Shown: piece by piece, positions 23,188 to 35,034 of the stretch
Layout: every line of letters starts with the position of its first letter
Position numbering within the stretch: the stretch's first letter is position 1
NCBI RefSeq assembly: GCF_003591005.1
Contig: NZ_QYYD01000037.1
Span: forward strand, 1-36,322
Reading direction: 5' to 3'
DNA from: Rhodopseudomonas palustris
GTDB lineage: Bacteria; Pseudomonadota; Alphaproteobacteria; Rhizobiales; Xanthobacteraceae
Length of the DNA: 36,322 nucleotides
Notes under the pieces: generated by a model
Told to the model about the DNA's origin: nothing
Seen by the model: the letters and a program-made list of their open reading frames with translations, nothing else
Databases searched by the model: none
Program-made: the position numbers and the translations under genes

Positions 23188-23268
23188 GCTGCGCTTTCGA
23201 ACATCCGCGCCGTCGGCGAGTTACGTCGGCGTGCGCTGCATCTGCTTTGCTGGTGTGTGGAGGCCCTG

Positions 23269-24444
23269 ATGAAGGCACTGCTGGTCTGGGTCTCCGGTTC
23301 GCTGACGGCGGCCACGGTGATCATCGCGTCGTTCCTGATCGCCACCAAGAGCAGCGGCGAGCCGACTTCCTTCACCTCCTCGGCAGGTTCGCTGGCGGTC
23401 AAGACCTTCGCCGAGAACCTGGCCTATCCGTGGGGACTGGCATTCCTGCCGGAGGGCCGCGCGTTGGTGACCGAACGCCCCGGGCGAATGCGCGTTGTGT
23501 CGTCGCAGGGCGCGCTATCGCCACCCATTAGCGGCGTGCCAGAAGTCTGGGCCGCCGGCCAAGGCGGCCTGCTCGACGTCGTCACCGACAAGGACTACGC
23601 GACCAACCGCACCATCTACTTCTGCTACTCCGAGCGCACTACCGACGCTGGACGCAGCGGCGGCCGCACCGCCGTCGCACGCGCAGCGCTGAAGGAGGGC
23701 GACGCCCCGGCGCTCGAGGGCCTCAAGGTGATCTTCCGCCAGGACGGCCCGCTGTCGAGCGGCAATCACTACGGCTGCCGGATCGCTCAAGGCGCCGGCG
23801 GCAATCTCTACGTCACCCTCGGCGAGCATTTCAGCGGCCGCGACGAGGCGCAGAACCTCGGCAATCACCTCGGCAAAATCGTCCGGATCGCACCGGACGG
23901 CAGCGTGCCCAGGGACAATCCGTTCGTGGGCCGCGACGGCGCCAGGCCGGAGATCTGGAGCTGGGGCCACCGCAACGCGCAGGCGCTCGCCTTCAACCCC
24001 GTCGACGGCAAATTGTGGGAGATCGAGCACGGCCCACGCGGCGGTGACGAGGTCAACATCATCGGCGCCGGCAAGAACTACGGCTGGCCCGTGATCGGCT
24101 ACGGCATCGACTACTCAGGCGCCAAGATCCACGAGGCGACGGCCAGGCCCGGCATGGAGCAGCCGGTCAAATACTGGGTTCCGTCGATCGCGCCGTCCGG
24201 CATGGCGTTCTACACCGGCAAGTTGTTTCCGAAATGGAGCGGCAGCCTGTTCACCGGCGCGCTCGCCGGCAAGATGCTGGTGCGGCTGACACTGTCCGGC
24301 GACAAGGTCACCGGCGAAGAGCGGCTGCTGCAGCCGCTCAATGAACGCATCCGCGACGTCCGCCAGGGCCCCGACGGCGCGATCTGGCTGCTCACCGACA
24401 ACGCCGCCGGCCGCATCCTGCGCGTCACGCCGGCGAGCCAGTAG
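23269..24444 (+). CDS. PQQ-dependent aldose sugar dehydrogenase, YliI type (391 aa)
   Basis: Exported six-bladed beta-propeller quinoprotein that oxidises aldoses to lactones. An N-terminal hydrophobic signal (about residues 5-25) directs it to the periplasm, where it may stay anchored. Family points are [20 protein letters not shown], the active-site His167 in [20 protein letters not shown] with the PQQ-binding Arg235, and the calcium/PQQ region [21 protein letters not shown] (254-274, shortened here to its key residues His254, Asp260, Asn268). Start is the ATG at 23269 with GGAGG five bases upstream; a GTG at 23257 is in frame but worse placed. No PQQ biosynthesis genes lie in the window. 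Ends before a family A repeat. Confidence 0.88.
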
Positions 24445-24495
24445 TTAGTCCCCAGCCCAATAATCGGTCTCTCCAGTAGTCACTGACCTCCCCGC

Positions 24496-24624
24496 CGTCA
24501 TGCCCGGCCTTGTGCCGGGCATCCACGCCTTGCTGACTGGAACGCAGAAAAGGCGGGGATGGCCGGGCCTTCGCCGCGCCGAAGCGGCTTCGGCCGCGCA
24601 GGCGGGACAAGCCCGGCCATGACG
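24496..24624. repeat. Family A palindromic repeat, copy 4 (extended arm)
   Basis: Same orientation as copy 1. Its GGCCGGG arm is interrupted by about 38 bases that form a sub-hairpin (CGCCGAAGCGGCTTCGGCCG region), matching the extension in copy 3 reverse-complemented. It lies between the convergent stops of the PQQ dehydrogenase and dctM, 9 bases from the latter. Confidence 0.85.
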
Positions 24625-24633
24625 CGATGCTGA

Positions 24634-25956
24634 TCAGCGCGGCATCCCGAAGAACAGGTTCGGGAAGAACAGCGCGATCTGCGGCAGCATGATCACGATC
24701 AGCACGCCGAGGAACGTCACCAGCGCATAGGGAATGACCGACCAGTAGATGTCGCCCATCGTCACCTCGGGCGGCGCCACCGCCTTCAGGTAGAACAGAT
24801 TGAAGCCGAACGGCGGCGTCATGTAGCCGATCTCCATCATCATGATGAAGATGACGCCGAACCACACCGGATCCCAGCCATAGAGCTGCACCACCGGCAT
24901 GAACACCGGCAGCGTAATCAGCATGATGCCGACCGGATCCAGCACCATGCCGAGCAGCAGCAGCACCGCCAGGATGAAGATCAGTGCGCCCCATTCGCCG
25001 CCGGGCACCTGCGACACCAGATGGTTCATCAACTCGTTGGCGCCGAGCGTGGTGTAGGCGGTCGAGAAGGCGTGCGCGGCGAACAGGATCCACATGATCA
25101 GCGCGGTCAGCCGCAACGTCTGCATCGCCGAATCCGACAACACCGCGTATGTCAGCTTGCGATGCACCGCGGAGGCAATCAACGCGCCGAACACGCCGAG
25201 CGCTGCGGCCTCGGTCGGCGTCGCAAAGCCGCCGAAGATCGAGCCGAGCACCAGCAGCACGATCAGGATCGGCAGCGCCACGGCCTTCAGCGTGCTCAGC
25301 TTCAGCCGCCAGTCGCCGCGCTCTTCCGGCGGCAGCGCCGGCGCCAGTGACGGCTGCAGCCAGGCGCGCACGATGATGTAGATCGTCACCAGCACCACGA
25401 GCAGAATGCCGGGGCCGATGCCCGAGGCGAACAGCCGGCCGACCGAGACTTCGATCAGCATCGCGTACAGCACCATCAGGATCGACGGCGGCACCAGCAC
25501 GCCCCAGCCGCCGCCGGCGTTGATGGCGCCGATCGCCAGCTTCTTGTCGTAGCCGCGCTCCAGCATACGCGGCAGCGCGATCGCCCCCATCGTCACCACC
25601 GCGGCGCCGCTGATGCCGCTCATCGCCGCGAAGATCGCACAGATCATCACGGTGCCGATCGCCAGCCCGCCGCGCATCGCGCCGAACCAGACGTGCATCA
25701 TCCGGTAGAGATTCTGCGCGACGCCGGACTTTTCCAGCAGCATCGCCATGTAGACGTACATCGGGATGGCGATCAGCGTGAAGTTCGTCATCGAGTCCCA
25801 GAATTTGGACGCGACGATGTAGAAGCCGACCGGCCCCATGGCGAAGTACAGAAAGATCACCGAGATGCCGCCGAGCGTGAACACCAGCGGCGTGCCGATG
25901 AACAGGAACACCAGCAGCGAACCGAAGAACAGGAAGGTCAGAAGCTCGACAGACAC
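24634..25956 (-). CDS. dctM: TRAP transporter large permease (440 aa)
   Basis: Inner-membrane subunit that carries the transport pathway of a sodium-coupled TRAP uptake system. About twelve to thirteen hydrophobic segments are visible. Family landmarks include MYVYMAMLLEKSG, GAINAGGGWGVLVPPSILMVLYAMLIEVSVGRLF and the second pore-like half PVGIMLITLPVFMPVV with MMEIGYMTPPFGFNLF. Start is GTG at 25956 with a poor ribosome site, suggesting coupling to dctQ, whose stop is only 12 bases upstream. It is the last gene of the dctP-dctQ-dctM run and probably of the whole Mo-enzyme cluster. Substrate unknown; probably a carboxylate. Confidence 0.95.
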   Translation of the reverse strand: MSVELLTFLFFGSLLVFLFIGTPLVFTLGGISVIFLYFAMGPVGFYIVASKFWDSMTNFTLIAIPMYVYMAMLLEKSGVAQNLYRMMHVWFGAMRGGLAIGTVMICAIFAAMSGISGAAVVTMGAIALPRMLERGYDKKLAIGAINAGGGWGVLVPPSILMVLYAMLIEVSVGRLFASGIGPGILLVVLVTIYIIVRAWLQPSLAPALPPEERGDWRLKLSTLKAVALPILIVLLVLGSIFGGFATPTEAAALGVFGALIASAVHRKLTYAVLSDSAMQTLRLTALIMWILFAAHAFSTAYTTLGANELMNHLVSQVPGGEWGALIFILAVLLLLGMVLDPVGIMLITLPVFMPVVQLYGWDPVWFGVIFIMMMEIGYMTPPFGFNLFYLKAVAPPEVTMGDIYWSVIPYALVTFLGVLIVIMLPQIALFFPNLFFGMPR

Positions 25957-25968
25957 GAGATCGCCCGA

Positions 25969-26511
25969 TCAGTGAGAGGAAGCGTCGCCGGCCTGCTTGC
26001 CGAACGTGGCGGGATCGTTGTCGAGACCGGCGAGCGTGCGGACATCGGACGCGATCCGCACCAGCCCCTGCAGCAGCAGCAGCACGCCGGCGATCGGGAT
26101 CGCCAGTTTGACGGGCCAAATATATGGATTCCAGAGACTCGACGAGGTCTCGAGCTTGGCGGCCGACTCCCATGCCATGTCGGCGCTCTGCCAGATCAGC
26201 ACGGCGAGGAAGATGAAGAACAAGAACGAGGTGGCGAGATCCACCCTCGCCTTCTGCGCGCGGCTGAACCTGCCGTAGAAGATGTCAACGTTGACATGCG
26301 CCCGCTCGGCGAGCAGATAGCCGCCCGCCACCACCGCGTAGACGCCGAAGATCAGTTGCGCGAACTCCGAGGTCCAGATCGCCGCGCTGCCGACCACGTA
26401 GCGCATGATCACGTCGGCCATCAGCAGTACGAAGATCGGCACGATCAGCCATGCGGCAATCCGTGCGACCCAGTAATTGAGCCGGGTAATAGCGGCGGCA
26501 ATCTTCAACAT
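25969..26511 (-). CDS. dctQ: TRAP transporter small permease (180 aa)
   Basis: Four-helix membrane subunit that pairs with DctM. Hydrophobic stretches lie near residues 15-37 (IAAWLIVPIFVLLMADVIMRY), 48-68, 90-108 and 130-150. The family signature around the first loop is MRYVVGSAAIWTSEFAQLIFG, and the ER-H-V-V-D segment, AERAHVNVDIFYGRFS, is typical. The ATG at 26511 was chosen because residues before it read as a non-coding Arg-rich stretch. The ribosome site is weak (no clear AGGAG). It lies 126 bases after dctP, with a hairpin in the gap, and 12 bases before dctM. Confidence 0.92.
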   Translation of the reverse strand: MLKIAAAITRLNYWVARIAAWLIVPIFVLLMADVIMRYVVGSAAIWTSEFAQLIFGVYAVVAGGYLLAERAHVNVDIFYGRFSRAQKARVDLATSFLFFIFLAVLIWQSADMAWESAAKLETSSSLWNPYIWPVKLAIPIAGVLLLLQGLVRIASDVRTLAGLDNDPATFGKQAGDASSH

Positions 26512-26526
26512 AAGGTGACTTTCATG

Positions 26527-26547
26527 GCTCGGCACGCGGCGCCGAGC
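26527..26547 (-). terminator. Intercistronic hairpin between dctP and dctQ
   Basis: Arms GCTCGGC (26527-26533) and GCCGAGC (26541-26547), 7 bp with a 7-base loop and no T run. It could stabilise or attenuate the mRNA so that the binding protein is made in excess, as is common for TRAP systems. Confidence 0.35.
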
Positions 26548-26637
26548 GGAGCGCGCGATGCCCGGCCCGGCCCGATCCGTCCGGTCGTGGTGCGGCAAGA
26601 ACGGATGCTGCTGCGTTTCACGGCAGAGAACGACAGC

Positions 26638-27690
26638 TCAGACGTAGCCGAGGTCCGACATCAGCTTCGACAGGGCGGTGCCGCCTTTGGCGGCGATCTC
26701 GCCCTTCGCGGTCTCCTTCTGCAGAATCGTCTTCGACGCTTCGGCGAACTTCGCCAGCACTTCGTCGGGGAATCTCACCACCTCGACATTCATCTTGGCG
26801 CGACCGGTGGCAAGCGCCATCGCCTCCTGGTGCTGATACTCGACCGAACGCAGGAAGTAACGTTCCTCGATCAGTGACAGCAGCTGCAGCTTGAGATCCG
26901 GCGGCAGCTTGTCGAGCGCAGCCACATTGATGATCCAGGCGTCGTTGGTGATGCCGAGAGCCGGCTTCATGTGGAACGGCGCGACTTCCCAGAACTTCAT
27001 CGACAGCGCGCCGACCGCGGCGCCCCAATGCGCGCCGTCGACCACGCCGGTCGAAATCGCCTGATAGATCTCGGGACCGGCGACCTGTTGCGGTGAGGCG
27101 CCGGCGGCGGCGAAATACTCGAGCATCGAGCCGGCAGATCGAATCTTCAGCGAGGCGAGCTCGGCGGCCGAGCTGATCTTGCGCTTCAGCACGACTTCGG
27201 TCGGATAGGCTTTCTCGGCGAAGATCAACACCCCTTTCGGCTTCAGCTCTTCATTGACCAGCTTCTCGACGCCGAGATTCTTGGTGAAGTGCATCATCTC
27301 CCAAGGCTCGCGCAGCGTGCCGGGAACGCCGTACAGCAAGCCCATCGCCTGCGCCTCACCGAGAATATAAGCCGGCGATATCGTGCCCATCTGCACCACG
27401 CCGCGGCGCACAACGTTGTAGATCTCGCGGTCTTTTGCGATCTCGCCGGCGCCGAACGTCTCGAGCGTGAAGCGGCCGTCGGTGCGCACGGCAAGCTCCT
27501 TGGCGAGCGCGCCGAGACTGTCGTTGAACGAGCCGGACGCCTTCGGCCAATGCGCCTGCACCTTCCAGCTGACCTTCTGCTGCGCCAGTGCCGGACCAAT
27601 CAGCGCCGGTGCCGCCGCTGCGACGAGCGCGCCCTTGAGAATGCTGCGACGGTTCTTGCTGATCGAGCCTGGCACGCGTTTCTCCCTCAT
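26638..27690 (-). CDS. dctP: TRAP transporter substrate-binding protein, Tat-exported (350 aa)
   Basis: Periplasmic ligand-binding subunit of the TRAP system. The N-terminus has a twin-arginine motif (Arg14-Arg15 in NRRSILKG) followed by a hydrophobic stretch ending ALA-QQ (cleavage after residue 36). Binding-protein points are AHWPKASGSFNDSLGALAKEL, RTDGRFTLETFGAGEI, the carboxylate-binding Arg in LKIRSAGSMLEYFAAAGASPQQV, and the YQAISTGVVDGAHWGA region. The last part resembles the TakP-like group that binds alpha-keto acids, but I cannot assign the ligand. ATG at 27690 preferred: a longer frame starts 126 bases upstream without signal. AGGA lies about ten bases upstream. Co-directional with dctQ and dctM. 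Confidence 0.93.
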   Translation of the reverse strand: MREKRVPGSISKNRRSILKGALVAAAAPALIGPALAQQKVSWKVQAHWPKASGSFNDSLGALAKELAVRTDGRFTLETFGAGEIAKDREIYNVVRRGVVQMGTISPAYILGEAQAMGLLYGVPGTLREPWEMMHFTKNLGVEKLVNEELKPKGVLIFAEKAYPTEVVLKRKISSAAELASLKIRSAGSMLEYFAAAGASPQQVAGPEIYQAISTGVVDGAHWGAAVGALSMKFWEVAPFHMKPALGITNDAWIINVAALDKLPPDLKLQLLSLIEERYFLRSVEYQHQEAMALATGRAKMNVEVVRFPDEVLAKFAEASKTILQKETAKGEIAAKGGTALSKLMSDLGYV

Positions 27691-27866
27691 CTTGTTGTTG
27701 TCCTGATTGGACCATGCGGGAAATACAACAGTCAACGCGCCAACGCTGCTTGCTCGCAGCGACGATGTCGCAGCTACCTGCGCGGTTAGGTCGCGATGTG
27801 TCCGCCACCGGACCAACCGCCGCGCGAATGTCGCACCGCACCCTGCGCCTGAGCGTGGCGCCAGAC

Positions 27867-28934
27867 CTATGACGGAATCAATTTTTCAGCGCGCAATCGC
27901 TCGAACAGATCGAAGAAGCTGTCGTCGGTCGCCTGATAGTCGAGAAAGCCGAGCTTGCGGCTCTTGCTCATGTCGGTGACGACTTCGATCGGCCGGCCGA
28001 GATCGGCATCGGTGTGCCAAGCCGAACTCAGCACGCTGAGATCGGCTTCGGCGAGCCGATACTTGGCGGCGATCTCGCGCCAGATCGGCGCGGCGTCGGC
28101 GAGCTGCTGCTCGAGTGGAACGCCTTCGCCCGGAAACGGCGCAGGCGTCAGGCCGAAGTAATCGGCGATGCGGCTCCACATCCAGCTCCAGCGGAAGACG
28201 TCGCCATTGACGACGTTGAACGCCTGGTTACGCGCCGCCTCGGTGGTCGACGCCCATTCCAGATGGCGCGCCAGCAGCCGCGCGTCGGTCATGTCGGTGA
28301 GGCCGTTCCACTGCGCGGCCGAGCCGGGAAACAGGAACGGCCGGCCGGTCTCCTTGCAGATCGTGGCATACACCGCCAGCGTCACGCCCATGTTCATCGC
28401 GTTGCCGACCGCGTAGCCGATGATGGTGTGCGGCCGGTGCACGGTCCAGCCGAAGCCGTCGCGCTTGGCAGCGGCGAACACTTCATCCTCCTGGGCGTAG
28501 TAGAAATTCTCCAGATCGAGCCGCGGCTGGTCTTCGCGAAACGGCGTCGCCGGCAGCTTGCCTTTGCCATAGGCCTCGAACGGGCCGAGATAGTGCTTGA
28601 GCCCGGTGACCAGCGCGACGTGCTGCACCGACCCCGCCGGCGACAGCGCGTCCAGCAGGTTGCGCACCATCGCGCCGTTGACGCGGATATTCTCGGCCTC
28701 GGTGCTCTGACGCAGCCAGGTGGCGAGAAAGACATGGCTCGGGCGTAGATCCTTCAGCGCGGCCTGCAGCGCCGCGGCATCGAGCAGATCGGCGGCCACC
28801 GGAATGACGCCCTCGAGATGCTGCGGCGGGCGCCGCGCCAGGCCATGGATTTGCCAGCCCTGCTTGTGCAGATGCTGCGCGAGATTGTTGCCGACGATGC
28901 CGCTGGCACCGACGATGAGCGCTGAATGTGCCAT
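27867..28934 (-). CDS. PRISE-type SDR, NADPH-dependent enone reductase (355 aa)
   Basis: Extended short-chain dehydrogenase of the progesterone-5-beta-reductase/iridoid-synthase-like (PRISE) group, which reduces C=C bonds conjugated to carbonyls. NADPH motif GASGIVG (9-15) with Arg34-Arg35 nearby. The PRISE hallmark VTGLKHYLGPFEAYGKG carries Lys113, and NFYYAQED supplies Tyr145/Tyr146, the two residues that replace the classical SDR YxxxK. Later points are VHRPHTIIGYAVGNAMNMG and DMTDARLLARHLEWA. ATG at 28934 has AAAGGCG upstream. It lies between the ferredoxin reductase gene and dctP on the same strand, with a 13-base palindrome (CTGAACCGTTCAG) just above the ribosome site. Bacterial members are of unknown physiological role. 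Confidence 0.88.
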   Translation of the reverse strand: MAHSALIVGASGIVGNNLAQHLHKQGWQIHGLARRPPQHLEGVIPVAADLLDAAALQAALKDLRPSHVFLATWLRQSTEAENIRVNGAMVRNLLDALSPAGSVQHVALVTGLKHYLGPFEAYGKGKLPATPFREDQPRLDLENFYYAQEDEVFAAAKRDGFGWTVHRPHTIIGYAVGNAMNMGVTLAVYATICKETGRPFLFPGSAAQWNGLTDMTDARLLARHLEWASTTEAARNQAFNVVNGDVFRWSWMWSRIADYFGLTPAPFPGEGVPLEQQLADAAPIWREIAAKYRLAEADLSVLSSAWHTDADLGRPIEVVTDMSKSRKLGFLDYQATDDSFFDLFERLRAEKLIPS

Positions 28935-28949
28935 GGTCGCCTTTCGCTG

Positions 28950-28962
28950 CTGAACCGTTCAG
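28950..28962. promoter_or_regulatory. CTGAAC-N-GTTCAG palindrome above the PRISE gene
   Basis: Perfect 6-bp arms around one base, ending 15 bases upstream of the ATG at 28934. The size and symmetry suit a TetR-like operator. No TetR gene is in the window. Confidence 0.35.
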
Positions 28963-29077
28963 ATAGGCACCAGCAACGCCGAGCGCCAATCAACGTTCAG
29001 TGCGATGTGTGGAAGCTGCCAAACGCCTCGCGCAGGCTGGGCAGCCTCGGACGCTGGGACCGATCCAAGCGAGAGCG

Positions 29078-30382
29078 TCAAGATGCGGCGTCGAGCGCGG
29101 CGATCATCTCGGAAACGCTGACGAATTTCTCGCGCAGCCGGCCGCTGCGGGCCCCTTGCCGCTTCTCGGCGGCATCGATCGCGGTCCAGTCCTGGTAACT
29201 CACCAGCCGCGCAACGCGCTGGCGCAGCCGTGCCAGCAAGGCGTCGGGATCGCCGGCGCGCTGCGGCGCGCGCGTGGAAAGGTCGGCGAGGACCGCCTCG
29301 ATGGTCGCGAGGCTGCAGGCGCGGTTGGTGCCGATGGTGCCGCTCGGGCCACGTTTGCTCCAGCCGCAGACGTAGAGACCGGTCACGACCTCGTTGCCAT
29401 TGGCGGCGCGTCCGCCGACATTGGCGTGCACGCCGCGCTGCTCATCATAAGGCACACCGGCGATCGGGGCGGTGCGCCGGCCGATGCTGCTGAAGACGGC
29501 GCCGCAGGCGATCTGCTGCGCTGCGCCACCCTGACCGGCAAAGCGGATCGCTTCGACACGCTGCTCGCCGTCGATCGCGATCGGCAACAGGCCAAAGCGG
29601 AAGATGCAGCGCCGCGGCTTGGCGGGCGTTTGCGCCGCGAAGGTGCGCAGTAGTGCCAGCTTCTCGGCTCGCTCCGGATCGTCGGTCGTCTCGGGCAGAT
29701 CGGCGAGGTCGCGCGGATCGACCAAGGCGCCGCATTGCGCGAGGTCAAGAAAGTCGCGCAGTTCTTTGGCGCCGAACTTGGCCTGCGCCGGCCCGCCGCG
29801 GCCGACGACATGGACTTCGCGGACGCGGCTCTCGGCCAGCGCCTCGAGCGCGTGCGCGGCAATGTCGGTGTGGCGCAATTCGTCGGCGGTCTTCGACAGG
29901 ATGCGGGCGACGTCGAGCGCGACGTTGCCGTGGCCGATGATGGTGGCGACCTCGTGGCTGAGATCGAAGCGGTGGTCGCGATGATCGGGATGGCCGTTGT
30001 ACCAGGCGACGAAATCACCGGCGGAATAACAGCCCGGCAGCGTCTCGCCCGCAATGCCGAGCGGCCGGCTGAGATCGGCGCCGGTCGCCAGCACCACGGC
30101 GTCATAGGCCGCGCGCAGGTCGCCGATCGCCACGTCGTCGCCGACGCTGACGCCGCCGACGAAGCGAAAGCCGGGCAGCGCCGCGATCTTGTCGAAGGTG
30201 ATGCTGACCAGCTTGAGCTTGGGATGATCGGGCGCCACGCCGTAGCGCACCAGGCCGTACGGCACCGGCAGTTGCTCGAACATGTCGACGGCGATCGGCA
30301 CGCCGGAGCGCAGCAACGCCTCGGCCGCGTAGAAGCCGCTCGGACCACTGCCGACAATGGCAATTTGAAACGGGGCGCTCAT
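29078..30382 (-). CDS. fprA: Ferredoxin-NADP reductase, adrenodoxin-reductase type (434 aa)
   Basis: FAD enzyme moving electrons between NADPH and a ferredoxin. FAD site GSGPSG (11-16) and the PYGLVRYGVAPDHPKLK segment (41-57), a signature of adrenodoxin reductase/FprA. NADP site GHGNVALDVAR (150-160). The C-terminal GWSKRGPSGTIGTNR motif is also typical. The ATG at 30382 overlaps the ferredoxin stop by 4 bases (ATGA), strong evidence that the two partner each other. This is separate from the ferredoxin, unlike mycobacterial fused FprB. A longer reading upstream was rejected because it runs through the ferredoxin gene. Confidence 0.92.
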   Translation of the reverse strand: MSAPFQIAIVGSGPSGFYAAEALLRSGVPIAVDMFEQLPVPYGLVRYGVAPDHPKLKLVSITFDKIAALPGFRFVGGVSVGDDVAIGDLRAAYDAVVLATGADLSRPLGIAGETLPGCYSAGDFVAWYNGHPDHRDHRFDLSHEVATIIGHGNVALDVARILSKTADELRHTDIAAHALEALAESRVREVHVVGRGGPAQAKFGAKELRDFLDLAQCGALVDPRDLADLPETTDDPERAEKLALLRTFAAQTPAKPRRCIFRFGLLPIAIDGEQRVEAIRFAGQGGAAQQIACGAVFSSIGRRTAPIAGVPYDEQRGVHANVGGRAANGNEVVTGLYVCGWSKRGPSGTIGTNRACSLATIEAVLADLSTRAPQRAGDPDALLARLRQRVARLVSYQDWTAIDAAEKRQGARSGRLREKFVSVSEMIAALDAAS

Positions 30383-30684
30383 CGTCCGAGCGCGACCTTG
30401 CGTTCGTCGGCGCCGGGCAGCGGCGGCAGCCGCGCAGTGATCACCGGCGTTTCGGCGACGCGCTTGCGGTTGACGGCGATCCAATACTTCTTGTCGGCGG
30501 CCAGCCGATAGTCCGGCTCGATCGCGCCGACCGGGCACGCCGGCACGCAGCCGCCGCAATCGATGCAGTTCTCCGGGTCGATATAGGTCATGCTGCCGTC
30601 GAGGTGGAAACACTCGACCGGGCACACTGTCACGCATTCGGTGTAGCGGCAGCCCTTGCAATTATCAGTCACGACGTGGGTCAT
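30379..30684 (-). CDS. fdxA: 7Fe-type ferredoxin (101 aa)
   Basis: Small electron carrier with two clusters. Cysteines at 9, 12, 17, 21, 25, 40, 43, 46 and 50 match Azotobacter ferredoxin I after a one-residue shift: 9, 17 and 50 for the [3Fe-4S] cluster, 21, 40, 43 and 46 for the [4Fe-4S], and 12 and 25 free. The C-terminal part (VNRKRVAETPVITARLPP) fits FdxA. The ATG at 30684 follows the Mo oxidoreductase stop by 75 bases that contain a hairpin. It overlaps fprA by 4 bases. Likely partners are the reductase and the Mo enzyme. Confidence 0.95.
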   Translation of the reverse strand: MTHVVTDNCKGCRYTECVTVCPVECFHLDGSMTYIDPENCIDCGGCVPACPVGAIEPDYRLAADKKYWIAVNRKRVAETPVITARLPPLPGADERKVALGR

Positions 30685-30716
30685 CGTCGAAATTCCAGTG
30701 GTGAGACAAGACAACA

Positions 30717-30738
30717 GCCGACGCCGCGCGGCGTCGGC
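30717..30738 (-). terminator. Hairpin between the Mo oxidoreductase and ferredoxin genes
   Basis: Perfect 9-bp stem (GCCGACGCC / GGCGTCGGC) with a 4-base loop, followed on the minus strand by TGTTGTCTTGTCT. It could be a partial terminator or an mRNA stabiliser. It begins 21 bases past the Mo gene stop. Confidence 0.45.
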
Positions 30739-30758
30739 CTCGATCGGCGAGAGCCGAG

Positions 30759-32885
30759 CTACATCCGCCCGACCTGCACCAGCACGTCGGAGAACGTCGG
30801 TGCGCGGCCGAGATCGGCGAAGGCCGGCGGCGTCAAGGCGTGCACCGTGGCGCCCTTGCGGTTGGAGCGCTGCCAATAGCCGGACGGCGCCACCACGACG
30901 CCCGCCATCACGTCGGCCGACACCGTCGCATAGGCTTCGAACGAGCCGCGATCGTTGAACACGCGGATCGGCGCGCCGGCTTCGATGCCGCGATGCGCCG
31001 CATCGTCGGGATTGAGGATCACCGCCTGCTCCTCGCCGGCCTGCGCGGTCTGCGCCGGCAGATTGCCGTAGTTGGAGTTGAGGAAGGCGTGGCTCTTCGG
31101 CGAGATCAGGCTGAGCGGATAGCGCTCGGCCAGCTGCGGCGCGGTGCGGGCGCTTTCGTTGGGCGAGATGTAGTGCGGCAGCGGATCGACCGGCGTCGCG
31201 TCCTGATCGCCATTGTAGCCTTGACGGAACAGCGGCACGACAAAATTGCCGCCGCCGGTGATGGTCGACTTGAACTCGCACTTGCCGGTCGCGGTCGGGA
31301 AGTTGCCTTCGCGATGCGGCGCCCAATCGGCTGGCGCCGGCATGTTGAGCCGCGCATAGCCCTTCGCCTTGAGGTCGTCGAGCGTGATGCCTTCGAGCAC
31401 CGGATTGCTCCAGTCCAGCGAGGCTTCGATCATCTCGTCGTCGCTGCGATAGAAGGCCGGGTCGGTGATACCCATCGCCTTGGCGAGACGCCGGAACAGC
31501 TCGGTGTTCGGCACCGCCTCGCCGAGCGGCTCGATCGCCTGATTGTTGTACGACAGATAGAGATGCCCCCAGGAGAACATGATGTCCTTCTGCTCGAGCT
31601 GGGTGGTCGCCGGCAGCACGATGTCGGCGTACTTCGCGGTGTCGGTGATAAAGTGATCGCTGACCACCGTGAACAGGTCCTCGCGCTCCAGCCCCTTCTC
31701 GATCTTGTCCTGCTCGGTGACCATCGCCATCGGGTTGGCGTTGTAGACGAACATCGCCTTGATCGGCGGATCGAAGCCGAGTTCGCCGTTGAGCGCGCGG
31801 CCGAGCCGCCACGAATTGAGCACGCGCATATTTTCGGGCGCGAGTTCGGGCCGCATCAAGACTTCCCACTTCACCGGGAAGGCCCAGATCGGCAGCTGCA
31901 AAAGCCCGCCGCCGACGTGTTTCCAGGCGCCGATCAGCGCCGGCAGGCAGGCGATCGCCCGCACCGTCTGGCCGCCGCCGGCGTGGCGCTCGACCGCGAC
32001 GCCGATCCGCACCACCGCCGGCGGCGTCGTGGCGTATTCGCGCGCCAGCTTGAGGATGTCCTCGACCGGAATGCCGGTCTCCTGTGACGCAAATTCCGGC
32101 GTGTAGGTGGCGGCGCGCTCCACCAGTTCGTCGTAGCCGACCGTGTATTTGTCGATGTAATCGCGATCGACCAGATTCTCCTTGATGATGACGTGGATCA
32201 TCGCCAGCGCCAGCGCCGCGTCGGTGCCGGGACGGATCGGGATGTGCCAATCGGCCAGCCGCGCCGTGCGTGTCTTCACCGGGTCGATCACTACCAGCTT
32301 GGCGCCGTTCTTCTTGGCCTGCTCGATGAACGGCCAGTGATGCGAGTTGGTGCTGAGCGTGTTGCAGGCCCAAAGAATGATGTACTTCGAGTGCACGAAA
32401 CTCTCGGGATCGACGCCCGGCGTGTGGCCGATCGTCATCATATAGGCGGTGCACGAGCCGGAATCGCAGAACGTCCGCTCCAGGACGGTGGCGCCGAGCT
32501 TGTTGAATAGCGGGTCGCCGACATTGAGGCCGTTGATGACGCCCTGCGTGCCGAGATAGCTGTAGGGCAGGATCGCCTGTGGGCCGTCTTCGGCGATGAT
32601 CTTTTTCCAGCGCGACGCGATGGTGTCGATCGCCTCGTCCCAGCTGATGCGCTGGAATTGCTTGCTGCCCTTGGGCCCGACCCGCTTCATCGGGTAGAGC
32701 ACGCGCTTGTCGCTGTAGACGCGCTCTTCGTAGTTGTTGACCTTGACGCACAGCCGGCCGCGCGTGAACGGATGATCGGGATTGCCGCGCACCGCGATCG
32801 CCTTGCCGTCCTCGACCGTGGTGAGGATCGAGCAGGTGTCGGGGCAATCGTGCGGGCAGGCGCCTACGACGGTGGTCCGGGCCAT
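30759..32885 (-). CDS. Cytoplasmic molybdopterin (bis-PGD) oxidoreductase (708 aa)
   Basis: DMSO-reductase-superfamily Mo or W enzyme without a Tat signal, so cytoplasmic. A [4Fe-4S] site near the N-terminus uses Cys10, Cys14, Cys18 and Cys46 (CPHDCPDTC, then RLCVKV). The metal-ligand region aligns at residues 140-145 (CDSGSC), where Cys140 sits at the position of formate dehydrogenase Sec140. DHFITDTAKYADIVLPATTQLEQ and the C-terminal pterin-binding domain (VILNPDDAAHRGIEAGAPI) are standard. GGAGG lies upstream of the ATG. Substrate unknown; the nearby ferredoxin and NADP reductase suggest electrons shuttle to NADP(H), and the neighbouring TRAP and PRISE genes suggest an organic acid or enone. 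Divergent from the AraC gene. Confidence 0.92.
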   Translation of the reverse strand: MARTTVVGACPHDCPDTCSILTTVEDGKAIAVRGNPDHPFTRGRLCVKVNNYEERVYSDKRVLYPMKRVGPKGSKQFQRISWDEAIDTIASRWKKIIAEDGPQAILPYSYLGTQGVINGLNVGDPLFNKLGATVLERTFCDSGSCTAYMMTIGHTPGVDPESFVHSKYIILWACNTLSTNSHHWPFIEQAKKNGAKLVVIDPVKTRTARLADWHIPIRPGTDAALALAMIHVIIKENLVDRDYIDKYTVGYDELVERAATYTPEFASQETGIPVEDILKLAREYATTPPAVVRIGVAVERHAGGGQTVRAIACLPALIGAWKHVGGGLLQLPIWAFPVKWEVLMRPELAPENMRVLNSWRLGRALNGELGFDPPIKAMFVYNANPMAMVTEQDKIEKGLEREDLFTVVSDHFITDTAKYADIVLPATTQLEQKDIMFSWGHLYLSYNNQAIEPLGEAVPNTELFRRLAKAMGITDPAFYRSDDEMIEASLDWSNPVLEGITLDDLKAKGYARLNMPAPADWAPHREGNFPTATGKCEFKSTITGGGNFVVPLFRQGYNGDQDATPVDPLPHYISPNESARTAPQLAERYPLSLISPKSHAFLNSNYGNLPAQTAQAGEEQAVILNPDDAAHRGIEAGAPIRVFNDRGSFEAYATVSADVMAGVVVAPSGYWQRSNRKGATVHALTPPAFADLGRAPTFSDVLVQVGRM

Positions 32886-32947
32886 GTGTCTCCTCCGTGT
32901 GCACGTTCAGAACCTGCGCAAGGATGCGGCACCCGGCGCCACGTTGC

Positions 32948-32982
32948 TTTTCCAATCCTGCTTGGTTGTTTTCCAAATCTGC
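32948..32982 (+). promoter_or_regulatory. AraC-type direct-repeat operator in the divergent promoter
   Basis: TTTTCCAATCCTGC (32948-32961) and TTTTCCAAATCTGC (32969-32982) agree at 12 of 14 bases and are exactly 21 bases apart, two helical turns on one face. This is the usual arrangement for AraC-family activator sites. It lies 63-97 bases above the Mo gene start and 88-122 above the AraC start. Confidence 0.6.
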
Positions 32983-33069
32983 CGTGGACGGCAGCCCCCG
33001 TCCGTGGCATGGTAATTGCTTACCTGGACTGCTCTTGCCTGCACTCGCGTCAATCTGTGGAGATTCACG

Positions 33070-33975
33070 ATGGGGATGCTCGGCAATTCTGTCGACAAAT
33101 ATGTCAACGGCAGAATGCTCCAGACTTCGAACGACCGGCGCTGGTCCAACCTGCTGGCGGAGAGATGGAGCCACGAATCCGGCGACCTACCGTCGCTCCT
33201 GCCGCGCGACACCGAAATTGCCGTGCTGCTGCGCGGCTCGTCGGTGGTCGACCGCGAAGGCGCCGGGATGCGGCAGCGGACCCATGGCCGGCGCGGCACG
33301 GTGTGGCTGTGCCCGGCGGGAATCCGCGAGGATTTCATCCGGGTCGAGAGCCCGATGCACGAGTGCCTGCACATCTTCCTGCCCGGGCGGCCGTTCGAGG
33401 ACACCATGCTGCAGGACATGGACATCGATCCGGCCGGCATCGCGATCCGCTACGAGGCGATCGACCACGACATCTTCATCGAGCACGTCGCCGACCGCAT
33501 CCTTCAGGAGCTCACGCACGAATCCTCGACCGGGCGCCTGCTGATCGAGAGCCTCGGCCGCGCGCTGTCGGCGCATCTCGTGCACAGCTATGCCGACACC
33601 GCCGTTCGGCTGAGGCAAACGCAGGGCAGCAACCGGCCGCTCGATGCGCGACGCCTGGCGCGCGTCACCGATTTCATCAGCACGTCGGCCGAGCGCGACT
33701 TCAGCGTCAACGATCTCGCCTCGATCGCCTGCATGAGCCCGGCGCATTTTTCACGCAGCTTCAAGGCCGCGACCGGCTGCGCGCCGCACGAATATGTCAG
33801 CCGGCAGCGGCTCGATCTCGCCAAGCGCATGCTCGCCACCGACCGCCAGTCGCTCGCCGAGATCGCCTATGCGACGGGATTTTCGTCGCAAGCCAATTTC
33901 AACCGCGCCTTCCGCAAGGCGGTCGGCACCACGCCGCGACTGTATCGGGCGCAGCATCGCAACACGCTGACGTAG
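33070..33975 (+). CDS. AraC-family transcriptional regulator (301 aa)
   Basis: A variable N-terminal ligand or dimerisation domain (about residues 1-195, no recognised fold) precedes a typical C-terminal double helix-turn-helix (about 200-300). Helix-turn-helix 1 is DFSVNDLASIACMSPAHFSRSFKAATG. The second, SLAEIAYATGFSSQANFNRAFRKAVGTTPRLYR, is the AraC hallmark. The ATG at 33070 has GGAG eight bases upstream; an ATG at 33016 adds an extension not needed by the fold. It is divergent from the Mo oxidoreductase, and its gap carries a pair of 21-base-spaced direct repeats. Inferred activator of the Mo-ferredoxin-PRISE-TRAP genes; inducer unknown. Confidence 0.92.
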   Translation: MGMLGNSVDKYVNGRMLQTSNDRRWSNLLAERWSHESGDLPSLLPRDTEIAVLLRGSSVVDREGAGMRQRTHGRRGTVWLCPAGIREDFIRVESPMHECLHIFLPGRPFEDTMLQDMDIDPAGIAIRYEAIDHDIFIEHVADRILQELTHESSTGRLLIESLGRALSAHLVHSYADTAVRLRQTQGSNRPLDARRLARVTDFISTSAERDFSVNDLASIACMSPAHFSRSFKAATGCAPHEYVSRQRLDLAKRMLATDRQSLAEIAYATGFSSQANFNRAFRKAVGTTPRLYRAQHRNTLT

Positions 33976-34191
33976 CGCGGTCAGGCGGCGAAGATCAGCG
34001 GCGACATGATGCGCCGGCAAAGCCGAATCGCATGCGCGATCGGTCGGCTGCGTCACCGCCATGTAACAAACTACCGATAGGTTAATGCTGCGTTTGATCG
34101 TGACCCCCCGTCGCCGATCAGCGTCCCCAGCGGTCCCCGTCAGTCGCCGCGTCTGACCGGGGCCGCACCTTTTTGAGCGGACGATATTGCG

Positions 34192-35034
34192 ATGATCCGT
34201 TTTGTCCTGGTAATTGCCTGCGTGGTGCCGCTGACGCTGGCGCTGCTTCCCTTGCATATCTTGGCGCTGCGCTACGGCTGGCGCATTCAGCGCAGCATCC
34301 CGCATCTGTATCACCGCATCGTCTGCCGGTTGATCGGCGTTCGCATCCGTCAGGTCGGTCGCCGCAGCGGCACCGGCCCGGTGCTGATCCTCGCCAATCA
34401 CGTCTCCTGGCTGGATATCTGTGTGATCTCCGCGATGGCGCCGGTGTCGTTCGTCGCCAAGAGCGAGGTCGCCGGCTGGCCGGTGTTCGGCGCGCTGGCG
34501 AAGTGGCAGCGCACCGTGTTCATCGATCGCCAGGCCCGTCACCGCACCGGCGCGGCAACCGCCGAGATCGGCACGCGGCTCAAGGCCGGCGAAGCCATCG
34601 TGCTGTTCGCCGAGGGGACTTCAAGCGATGGCAGCCGCGTGCTGCCGTTCCGCTCGGCGCTGATCGGCGCGGTACATCACGCGCTCGGCGACGACAGCGA
34701 CACCACGGTCGGCGTGCAGCCGATGGCCGTGACCTACACCGGCTTCGGCGGCCTGCCGATCGGCCGCGAGTTGCGCGATCGCGTGGCGTGGTACGGCGAC
34801 GCCGAACTGATCCCGCATTTCATCGGCCTGCTGTCGGCCGGCGCAATCGACGTCACCGTGAGCTGGGGCGAGCCGATCCTGCACACGTCCGATCGCAAGG
34901 CGATCGCGCGCGACGCCGAAACGTCGGTGCGGCGGATGTGCGAAGCCGCGCGCCGCGCCGGCATGCAGGGCGCGATCGCGCCGCGGCCCGGTGTTGCGGC
35001 GCCGCAAGCTGGCGCGCAATTCGAACCGGCCTGA
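34192..35034 (+). CDS. plsC: 1-acyl-sn-glycerol-3-phosphate acyltransferase-like protein (280 aa)
   Basis: Inner-membrane acyltransferase, one hydrophobic anchor at residues 1-26. The HX4D catalytic motif is NHVSWLD with His70 and Asp75. The substrate-binding FAEGTSSDG follows near residue 141, with WQRTVFIDR at 105-113. These match PlsC-type enzymes making phosphatidic acid; the protein could also acylate an ornithine lipid or another lysophospholipid (OlsA-like). Start ATG at 34192; the ribosome site is weak. The C-terminal ~20 residues are Ala/Pro-rich. It stands alone between the AraC gene and the aldo/keto reductase, 105 bases before the latter. Confidence 0.88.
   Translation: MIRFVLVIACVVPLTLALLPLHILALRYGWRIQRSIPHLYHRIVCRLIGVRIRQVGRRSGTGPVLILANHVSWLDICVISAMAPVSFVAKSEVAGWPVFGALAKWQRTVFIDRQARHRTGAATAEIGTRLKAGEAIVLFAEGTSSDGSRVLPFRSALIGAVHHALGDDSDTTVGVQPMAVTYTGFGGLPIGRELRDRVAWYGDAELIPHFIGLLSAGAIDVTVSWGEPILHTSDRKAIARDAETSVRRMCEAARRAGMQGAIAPRPGVAAPQAGAQFEPA

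Follow-up and report, generated by a model that had tools for sequence, protein, structure and literature searches.

The genome of Rhodopseudomonas palustris assembly GCF_003591005.1 (5.62 Mb in 91 contigs) includes, in a stretch of 36,322 nucleotides of contig NZ_QYYD01000037.1 (the window), adjacent genes for an AraC-family regulator, an oxidoreductase of the molybdenum or tungsten (Mo/W) bis(pyranopterin guanine dinucleotide) (bisPGD) type, here called the Mo enzyme, a 7Fe ferredoxin, and a ferredoxin reductase of the FprA type. The gene set recurs in Alpha-, Beta- and Gammaproteobacteria and on plasmids; its order, the overlap of its last two genes and a site upstream of it are conserved, and the set is separable from the genes of a PRISE-type enone reductase and a tripartite ATP-independent periplasmic (TRAP) transporter that follow it on the same strand. 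These genes probably constitute a self-contained mobile module under AraC control, in which a cytoplasmic chain would lead from NAD(P)H through FprA and the 7Fe ferredoxin to a Mo/W reductase: a portable, probably regulated Mo/W redox unit of Rhodopseudomonas, Bradyrhizobium, Methylobacterium, rhizobia, relatives of Variovorax, and plasmids. A literature search, with most subscription papers outside its reach, turned up, among the papers listed, none with a title or opening of the abstract on this set of AraC, Mo enzyme, ferredoxin and FprA.

Conservation and spread of the gene set

The window contains the following features of the module:

33016-33975, plus strand: AraC-family regulator (HTH_18), divergent from the Mo enzyme gene
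32948-32982, minus strand: tandem AraC-type half-sites GCAG-N4-GGAAAA, 21 bp apart, the first at -97 from the start codon of the Mo enzyme gene
30759-32885, minus strand: Mo/W-bisPGD oxidoreductase (PF00384, PF01568, PF04879), nearest solved structure acetylene hydratase
30716-30739, minus strand: G+C-rich stem-loop of 10 pairs in the gap between the Mo enzyme and ferredoxin genes, from a stem-loop scan
30379-30684, minus strand: 7Fe (3Fe-4S + 4Fe-4S) ferredoxin of the FdI type, its cysteines aligned across relatives
29078-30382, minus strand: FprA, adrenodoxin-reductase-type ferredoxin reductase, matching FprA 1lqt

The true start of the regulator is probably internal to the frame given. A scan of named genomes, from which records very near the window may be omitted, yielded 54 loci with the Mo enzyme (loci are numbered L and genomes G), the copies of 94-96% identity belonging to five Rhodopseudomonas strains. 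With genes called by a codon-scored gene caller, AraC is divergent from the Mo gene in 45 of the 54 loci and the Mo enzyme, ferredoxin and FprA genes are contiguous in 43. The first-pass annotation of the window had described the Mo enzyme as wired through a ferredoxin and NADP reductase of its own, a link that this conservation bears out, and had noted a 4-base overlap of the ferredoxin and fprA genes; the overlap (ATGA, 30379-30382, ferredoxin stop and fprA start) is present in every one of the 43 contiguous loci. Among the 11 others, the contigs of L035 and L038 end just past the Mo gene, that of L084 ends within it, and in L080 a small extra gene precedes the ferredoxin-FprA pair; the remaining seven are considered below. 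The next gene after FprA is moaA in 20 of the 54 loci (named from sequence and, in plasmid records, also from the record annotation). Apart from the core and moaA, no recurrent neighbour gave a clue to the substrate: families 5-12 of the gene maps are shared by Bradyrhizobium loci alone and, being confined to them, look like plain synteny.

Plasmid records with the same gene order include those of Allorhizobium ampelinum S4, Agrobacterium tumefaciens, Thioclava (with a gephyrin-like Glp, resembling MoeA, instead of MoaA) and Methylophaga pinxianii (with MoaA, and no adjacent AraC). A tree from which two frame-broken rows (L086 and L088) were omitted nests the Variovorax, Pseudacidovorax and Xenophilus copies in an alphaproteobacterial clade (support 0.978) and splits those of Bradyrhizobium among separate groups. 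The module has probably moved horizontally, because betaproteobacterial copies nest among alphaproteobacterial ones and Bradyrhizobium copies are scattered.

Alignment of 19 of the 46 intergenic regions between araC and the Mo gene (45 loci and the window) revealed a tandem repeat, which is present in all 46 divergons as two GCAGNNNNGGATAA half-sites, 21 bp apart, together matching 15-19 of 20 letters, the first starting 91-114 bp upstream of the Mo gene. The mean best score is 16.6 of 20 at a spacing of 21, and every other spacing between 16 and 29 gives 11.8-13.0. Three loci that were not used for the consensus (L118 of G480, L119 of G089 and L120 of G026) carry the site about 100 bp ahead of the Mo gene; so do two Agrobacterium-type plasmids (L106 and L165), which are close to loci already used. 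The window has one tandem site and no second was found there; nor was the site found in the Thioclava, Methylophaga and L115 loci, in five loci with TRAP genes and no module (L147, L148, L152, L153 and L155), or in two PRISE loci (L180 and L181). Three additional sites in L119 reach the threshold score of 15, which shows that the number expected from shuffling, 0.07 per strand per 36 kb, is an underestimate for DNA of that kind. AraC would presumably activate the operon of the module through the tandem site, and the conservation of this site offers a direct route to the inducer, hence to the class of substrate.

In 16 of 43 loci just 2 bases separate the Mo enzyme and ferredoxin genes, and the gap never exceeds 150. 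A stem like that of the window lies in the same gap of L036, L037, L051, L063 and L083, which are five of nine relatives inspected, and no such stem is present in the gap of L039, L053, L055 and L059. A scan of the window for promoter and terminator consensus sequences was at chance level (one found versus 1.4 expected, and six versus 5.3), the strongest stem of the scan falling between the Mo and ferredoxin genes.

The Mo enzyme and its electron chain

The Mo enzyme is a member of the Mo/W-bisPGD (DMSO reductase/MopB) superfamily by its matches to PF00384 (150.4 bits), PF01568 (79.1 bits) and PF04879 (49.3 bits), all above cut-off, and is predicted to be cytoplasmic, as no signal peptide is seen by eye. 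Its N-terminal [4Fe-4S] cysteines are Cys10, Cys14, Cys18 and Cys46. The nearest solved structure both by sequence (203 bits) and by fold (Foldseek E 4e-35, TM 0.69, root mean square deviation (rmsd) 7.5, 24% identity) is acetylene hydratase (Ahy) of Syntrophotalea (Pelobacter) acetylenica (PDB 2E7Z). No active-site geometry was taken from the predicted model, because its quality is moderate (mean pLDDT 64, pTM 0.65, with residues 137-147 around Cys140 below 50). Cys140 aligns with the Ahy ligand Cys141 (chain index 138 being taken as Cys141 with an offset of 3, which also places Cys12, Asp13 and Cys16 correctly) and, by their usual numbering, with the ligand Cys of polysulfide reductase and of formate dehydrogenases. 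Cys140, the four cluster cysteines, Pro15 and Asp16 are invariant in 29 of 29 sequences of the Mo enzyme, and Cys140 is the probable metal ligand.

Among the 25 matches listed of 26, the Mo enzyme falls under the cut-off of every NCBIfam model, and identity with the DMSO/selenate reductase DmsA/YnfE (TIGR02166, 313.9 versus 777.7 bits) and with the assimilatory nitrate reductase NasC (NF047855, 203.8 versus 1100 bits) was rejected on these scores. The Mo enzyme shares with formate dehydrogenases FdhF/FdhA its superfamily, a similar length and the Cys ligand (in the aligned HDCR enzyme), but its score against the formate dehydrogenase model is far below cut-off (270.6 versus 666.25 bits), and the residue following the ligand Cys, which is His in the HDCR enzyme and likewise in FdhF, is Asp in 26 of 29 sequences (Asp141 here), Gly in 3 of 29, and never His. 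With Ahy it shares an N-terminal [4Fe-4S] cluster and the position of the Cys ligand in addition to the best match, but at only 24% identity and with Pro15 in place of Asp13 in all 29 sequences; Ahy is not known to come with a ferredoxin/FprA pair. In PMC12096430, Asp13 is described as specific to the acetylene hydratase subfamily, its change to Ala as abolishing activity, and the relatives inside that subfamily as not biochemically characterised. Membership of the subfamily was rejected for want of this residue; since Asp13 and the His are missing, the Mo enzyme is given the name of neither acetylene hydratase nor formate dehydrogenase.

The ferredoxin aligns with FdI of Azotobacter, a 7Fe ferredoxin, and has the FdI-type cysteine pattern, in keeping with its first description as a 7Fe protein; the exact name FdxA is withheld because it scores 108.7 bits against the equivalog model NF045490 (cut-off 135). 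FprA is similar along its full length to Mycobacterium FprA (PDB 1lqt, E 1.2e-90, residues 4-427) and also matches bovine adrenodoxin reductase along its length. Two neighbouring arginines of FprA, which we take to hold the 2'-phosphate of NADP, correspond to Arg-Gly here, the first Arg being kept in 45 of 45 sequences and the second in 13 of 45 (Gly in 30, Ser in 2). Genomes that have the Mo enzyme carry an FprA relative (E <= 1e-20) in 12 of 20 cases, and genomes that lack the enzyme in 2 of 20 (p = 0.002), both sets being hand-picked and unmatched by phylogeny; three of the 12 (G480, G114 and G086) are cases in which the FprA relative is adjacent, and without them the count is 9 of 17. G095 has the ferredoxin gene adjoining the Mo gene and FprA about 6 kb off, and G473 has the ferredoxin-FprA pair on a different contig. 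Chains of a ferredoxin with an FprA/adrenodoxin-type reductase feed cytochromes P450; the module has the same two components, but associated with a Mo/W enzyme and with a constant 4-base overlap.

In the proposed mechanism, AraC would sense the substrate or a related signal and bind the tandem half-sites, switching on the operon; FprA would take electrons from NAD(P)H and give them to the 7Fe ferredoxin, from which they would pass through the [4Fe-4S] cluster to the Cys-ligated Mo/W-bisPGD centre; and this centre would reduce, in the cytoplasm, a small compound that probably crosses membranes, in the manner of ferredoxin-dependent NarB with nitrate. NarB is a soluble bisPGD nitrate reductase fed by ferredoxin; unlike nitrate reductases of the NarB/NasC type, the module has its own FprA and AraC. 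Neither a transport system nor an additional catabolic enzyme is conserved alongside the module, which suggests a one-step conversion of a compound that enters freely or is made by the cell, as in detoxification or assimilation.

Several points weigh against such a chain as a general description of the module. Seven of the 54 loci (L074-L077, L079, L081 and L088) have no ferredoxin-FprA pair beside the Mo gene, nor do the small AT-rich genomes with Mo relatives of 54-56% identity; FprA relatives at E <= 1e-20 are missing from eight of the 20 genomes that carry the Mo enzyme; and in G026, where AraC, tandem site and Mo gene are all present, neither ferredoxin nor FprA lies in the 19.5 kb read (L120), and the genome has no FprA relative (E <= 1e-20). 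The ferredoxin-FprA pair is a preferred partner of the Mo enzyme and not an obligatory one, because G026 keeps AraC, site and Mo gene without it. The direction of electron flow, from NAD(P)H towards Mo/W, is proposed from the habit of these families, and with the loss of the second arginine FprA may use NADH or NADPH; the first description of the cluster as NADP-linked is unproven, since this arginine is Gly in the window and lost in 32 of 45 FprA sequences. Protein distances among the four module proteins correlate (Spearman 0.59-0.88 over 43 loci), which counts in favour of the module, but this correlation is inflated by kinship, as is the count of tandem sites. The tandem-site consensus came from the regions on which it was scored, and letter shuffles equalled the observed score in four of the 46 regions (1-2 of 300 shuffles each). 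The stem-loop between the Mo and ferredoxin genes could possibly end part of the transcripts, or attenuate or tune them. Finally, no conserved neighbour in the 54 loci points to a substrate.

The same genes would also fit a reverse flow, in which the Mo enzyme oxidises its substrate and delivers electrons through ferredoxin and FprA to NAD(P)+, as a soluble dehydrogenase like formate dehydrogenase. This seems unlikely: formate dehydrogenases are among the closest structures to the Mo enzyme, and two of the small AT-rich genomes have FdhD-like and MobA-like genes in the vicinity of the Mo gene, but the replacement of the His that follows the ligand and the low score against the formate dehydrogenase model argue against it, and one of those two loci (L117) has a second Mo-type gene, so its FdhD need not serve the Mo relative.

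It is quite improbable that the Mo enzyme catalyses a non-redox reaction like that of acetylene hydratase, with ferredoxin and FprA merely holding the metal in the reduced IV state. Acetylene hydratase is its best match by sequence and by fold, and needs reduction to W(IV) for activity according to PMC12096430; PMC7858054 reports a Mo-dependent acetylene hydratase in the aerobe Rhodococcus opacus, no aerobic one having been characterised until then. Against this stand Pro15 at the Asp13 position in all 29 sequences, the identity of just 24% and the loose superposition (rmsd 7.5). It would be a long shot to regard the module specifically as the aerobic counterpart of acetylene hydratase, acting on an alkyne, alkene or similar compound, with the chain holding the metal at IV under oxygen; if true, this would be an acetylene-hydratase-type enzyme with built-in reductive activation, which would explain the aerobic use of oxygen-sensitive chemistry. 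Bradyrhizobium sp. I71 is reportedly an aerobic user of acetylene with a putative acetylene hydratase. A reductase fed from NAD(P)H remains the probable function of the module.

PRISE and TRAP genes at a variable chromosomal site

The genes that accompany the module in the window are bounded by a PlsC-like acyltransferase gene and a pyrroloquinoline quinone (PQQ)-type sugar dehydrogenase gene, between which lies a variable site (24445-34191):

34192-35034, plus strand: PlsC-like acyltransferase (Pfam match), right border of the variable site by its position
27867-28934, minus strand: PRISE-type enone reductase, a short-chain dehydrogenase/reductase (Pfam match), read as an independent neighbour outside the module
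26638-27816, minus strand: DctP, TRAP solute-binding protein (PF03480 over cut-off), read as an independent neighbour
25969-26598, minus strand: DctQ, TRAP small permease (PF04290 over cut-off), read as an independent neighbour
24634-25956, minus strand: DctM, TRAP large permease (PF06808 over cut-off), read as an independent neighbour
23257-24444, plus strand: PQQ-type sugar dehydrogenase (family similarity, under the NCBIfam cut-off), left border of the variable site

The enone reductase was correctly recognised at first as a PRISE protein: it scores 66.9 bits against PF22917 (cut-off 27), its alignment with progesterone 5beta-reductase of plants covers residues 4-354 of 355, and both the Lys of TGxKHY and the Tyr of NFYY, residues with roles in PRISE enzymes, are aligned to 2v6f. 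The true start of DctP is more likely the ATG at 27690, ahead of a twin-arginine motif (a predicted Tat signal); its nearest match is 2hzk, a SmoM-type binding protein (E 2e-24), a likeness that may hint at 2-oxo acids. Repeats, tRNA genes and base composition around the genes of the window gave no sign of an island border.

Across 16 genomes of the genus, the Mo enzyme (E <= 1e-180) is found in eight, DctM (E <= 1e-120) in eight, and PRISE (E <= 1e-20) in one, the window's own. Mo enzyme and TRAP genes occur together in five, the former without the latter in three (G581, G583 and G585), the latter without the former in three (G582, G028 and G108), and neither in five, so that they are unassociated in this sample (Fisher p = 0.62). 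The variable site contains none of these genes in G581, G028, G108, G125, G156 and G190; G582 and G089 have just the TRAP genes there, G170 has the Mo module by itself, and G584 and G141 have the Mo module with TRAP genes; module, TRAP and PRISE are together only in the window strain (this comparison leaves out G067 and G181, as well as L159 of G585 and L038, taken as G583 by contig position, whose contigs both end after the Mo gene). The AraC-Mo-ferredoxin-FprA set lies elsewhere in G089 and G581, and the TRAP genes lie elsewhere in G170, G028 and G108.

PRISE matches at E <= 1e-60 are present in 14 of 248 genomes of the family. Of the five genomes outside the genus with the closest PRISE, three belonging to one other genus (G140, G607 and G593) carry PRISE by itself at this site, in the order aldo/keto reductase, PlsC, PRISE, PQQ sugar dehydrogenase, glutathione S-transferase; in the other two (G153 and G123) it lies elsewhere, and no gene of the window surrounds it. 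Plasmids carry further PRISE relatives, at about 65-74% identity (among the 15 records listed of 178); in five such loci inspected no Mo module lies within 4 kb of PRISE, whose neighbour is a small helix-turn-helix gene in divergent orientation in three and a sorbosone dehydrogenase-type gene in one, and in one of the helix-turn-helix type (L181, Pararhizobium) a TRAP set about 30% identical to that of the window is 1.3 kb away.

The first-pass annotation had joined all of these genes in one cluster with a single role. Its seven minus-strand genes from the Mo enzyme to dctM, opposite AraC, agree with the reading frames and protein families, and each of the eight genes is where and what it was said to be, but the grouping does not hold: the order of Mo enzyme, ferredoxin and FprA is conserved in other genomes, and the seven-gene set is not conserved beyond the window strain. 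A single pathway, in which a compound taken up by the TRAP system is converted by PRISE and the Mo enzyme, can be given very little credence. In its favour are the common strand and short gaps in the window, the Mo module adjoining TRAP genes in three of the five genus genomes that hold both, the TRAP set near PRISE in L181 (though of low identity), and the L079 locus, where relatives of PRISE (33%) and of the Mo enzyme (69%) are neighbours; against it are the single PRISE among 16 genus genomes and its solitary occurrence at this site in a different genus, the lack of association between Mo enzyme and TRAP, the gap of 143 bp between FprA and PRISE, and the presence of no second AraC-type site in the window. 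Since PRISE, TRAP and Mo module each occur alone at one site, they are separable, and PRISE and TRAP were rejected as pathway partners of the module; they look like independent neighbours at a variable site, a case in which genes adjacent on the same strand can mislead about a pathway.

Distant relatives and further neighbours

Mo relatives at E <= 1e-180 are found in 15 of 385 genomes of the class, the window's own included. Seven of the 15 are small (0.8-1.4 Mb), the stretches read having 25-30% G+C in six and 34% in one; habitat apart, most are SAR11-like in size and composition. In one of them (L111, 2795-10542) the neighbours of a 56% Mo relative resemble, by eye, a tungstate/molybdate ABC transporter (TupABC), MoaA, FdhD and MobA, and in another (L117, 7576-10808) a 56% Mo relative is near an FdhD-like gene and a MobA-like fragment, also judged by eye; because the L117 locus has a second Mo-type gene, its island may also serve a formate dehydrogenase. 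The neighbours in L108-L110 and L112 do not resemble the FdhD/MobA set by eye. Small monooxygenase-like genes (ABM/YdhR-type by eye) occur near the Mo enzyme in L080 (2489-2797, a gammaproteobacterial metagenome-assembled genome) and in the AT-rich L108 (7554-7874).

In G026 (L120, 8220-13473), a convergent 33% Mo paralogue sits beside the 78% Mo enzyme, where the ferredoxin and FprA genes would be. A 35% paralogue of the Mo enzyme is found in L032 (G000:C22:311037-313022), most hits of that search being of this kind, at 31-39% identity. A Streptomyces plasmid (L107, 2004-14040) encodes a 43% Mo relative, too distant to use, amid biosynthesis-like genes for a 2-oxoglutarate-Fe dioxygenase, an iron-containing redox enzyme, DapF, an aminotransferase and an aldo/keto reductase.

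The PRISE relative of Bradyrhizobium lablabi (L079, 12352-13419, 33% identity) is convergent with its 69% Mo relative, which has no ferredoxin or FprA. PRISE is directly beside a PQQ/sorbosone-dehydrogenase-type gene in three loci of another genus (L197, 6096-8492; L198, 7827-10080; L201, 3060-5142), and beside a different sorbosone-dehydrogenase-type gene on a Paroceanicella plasmid (L180, 4001-6757).

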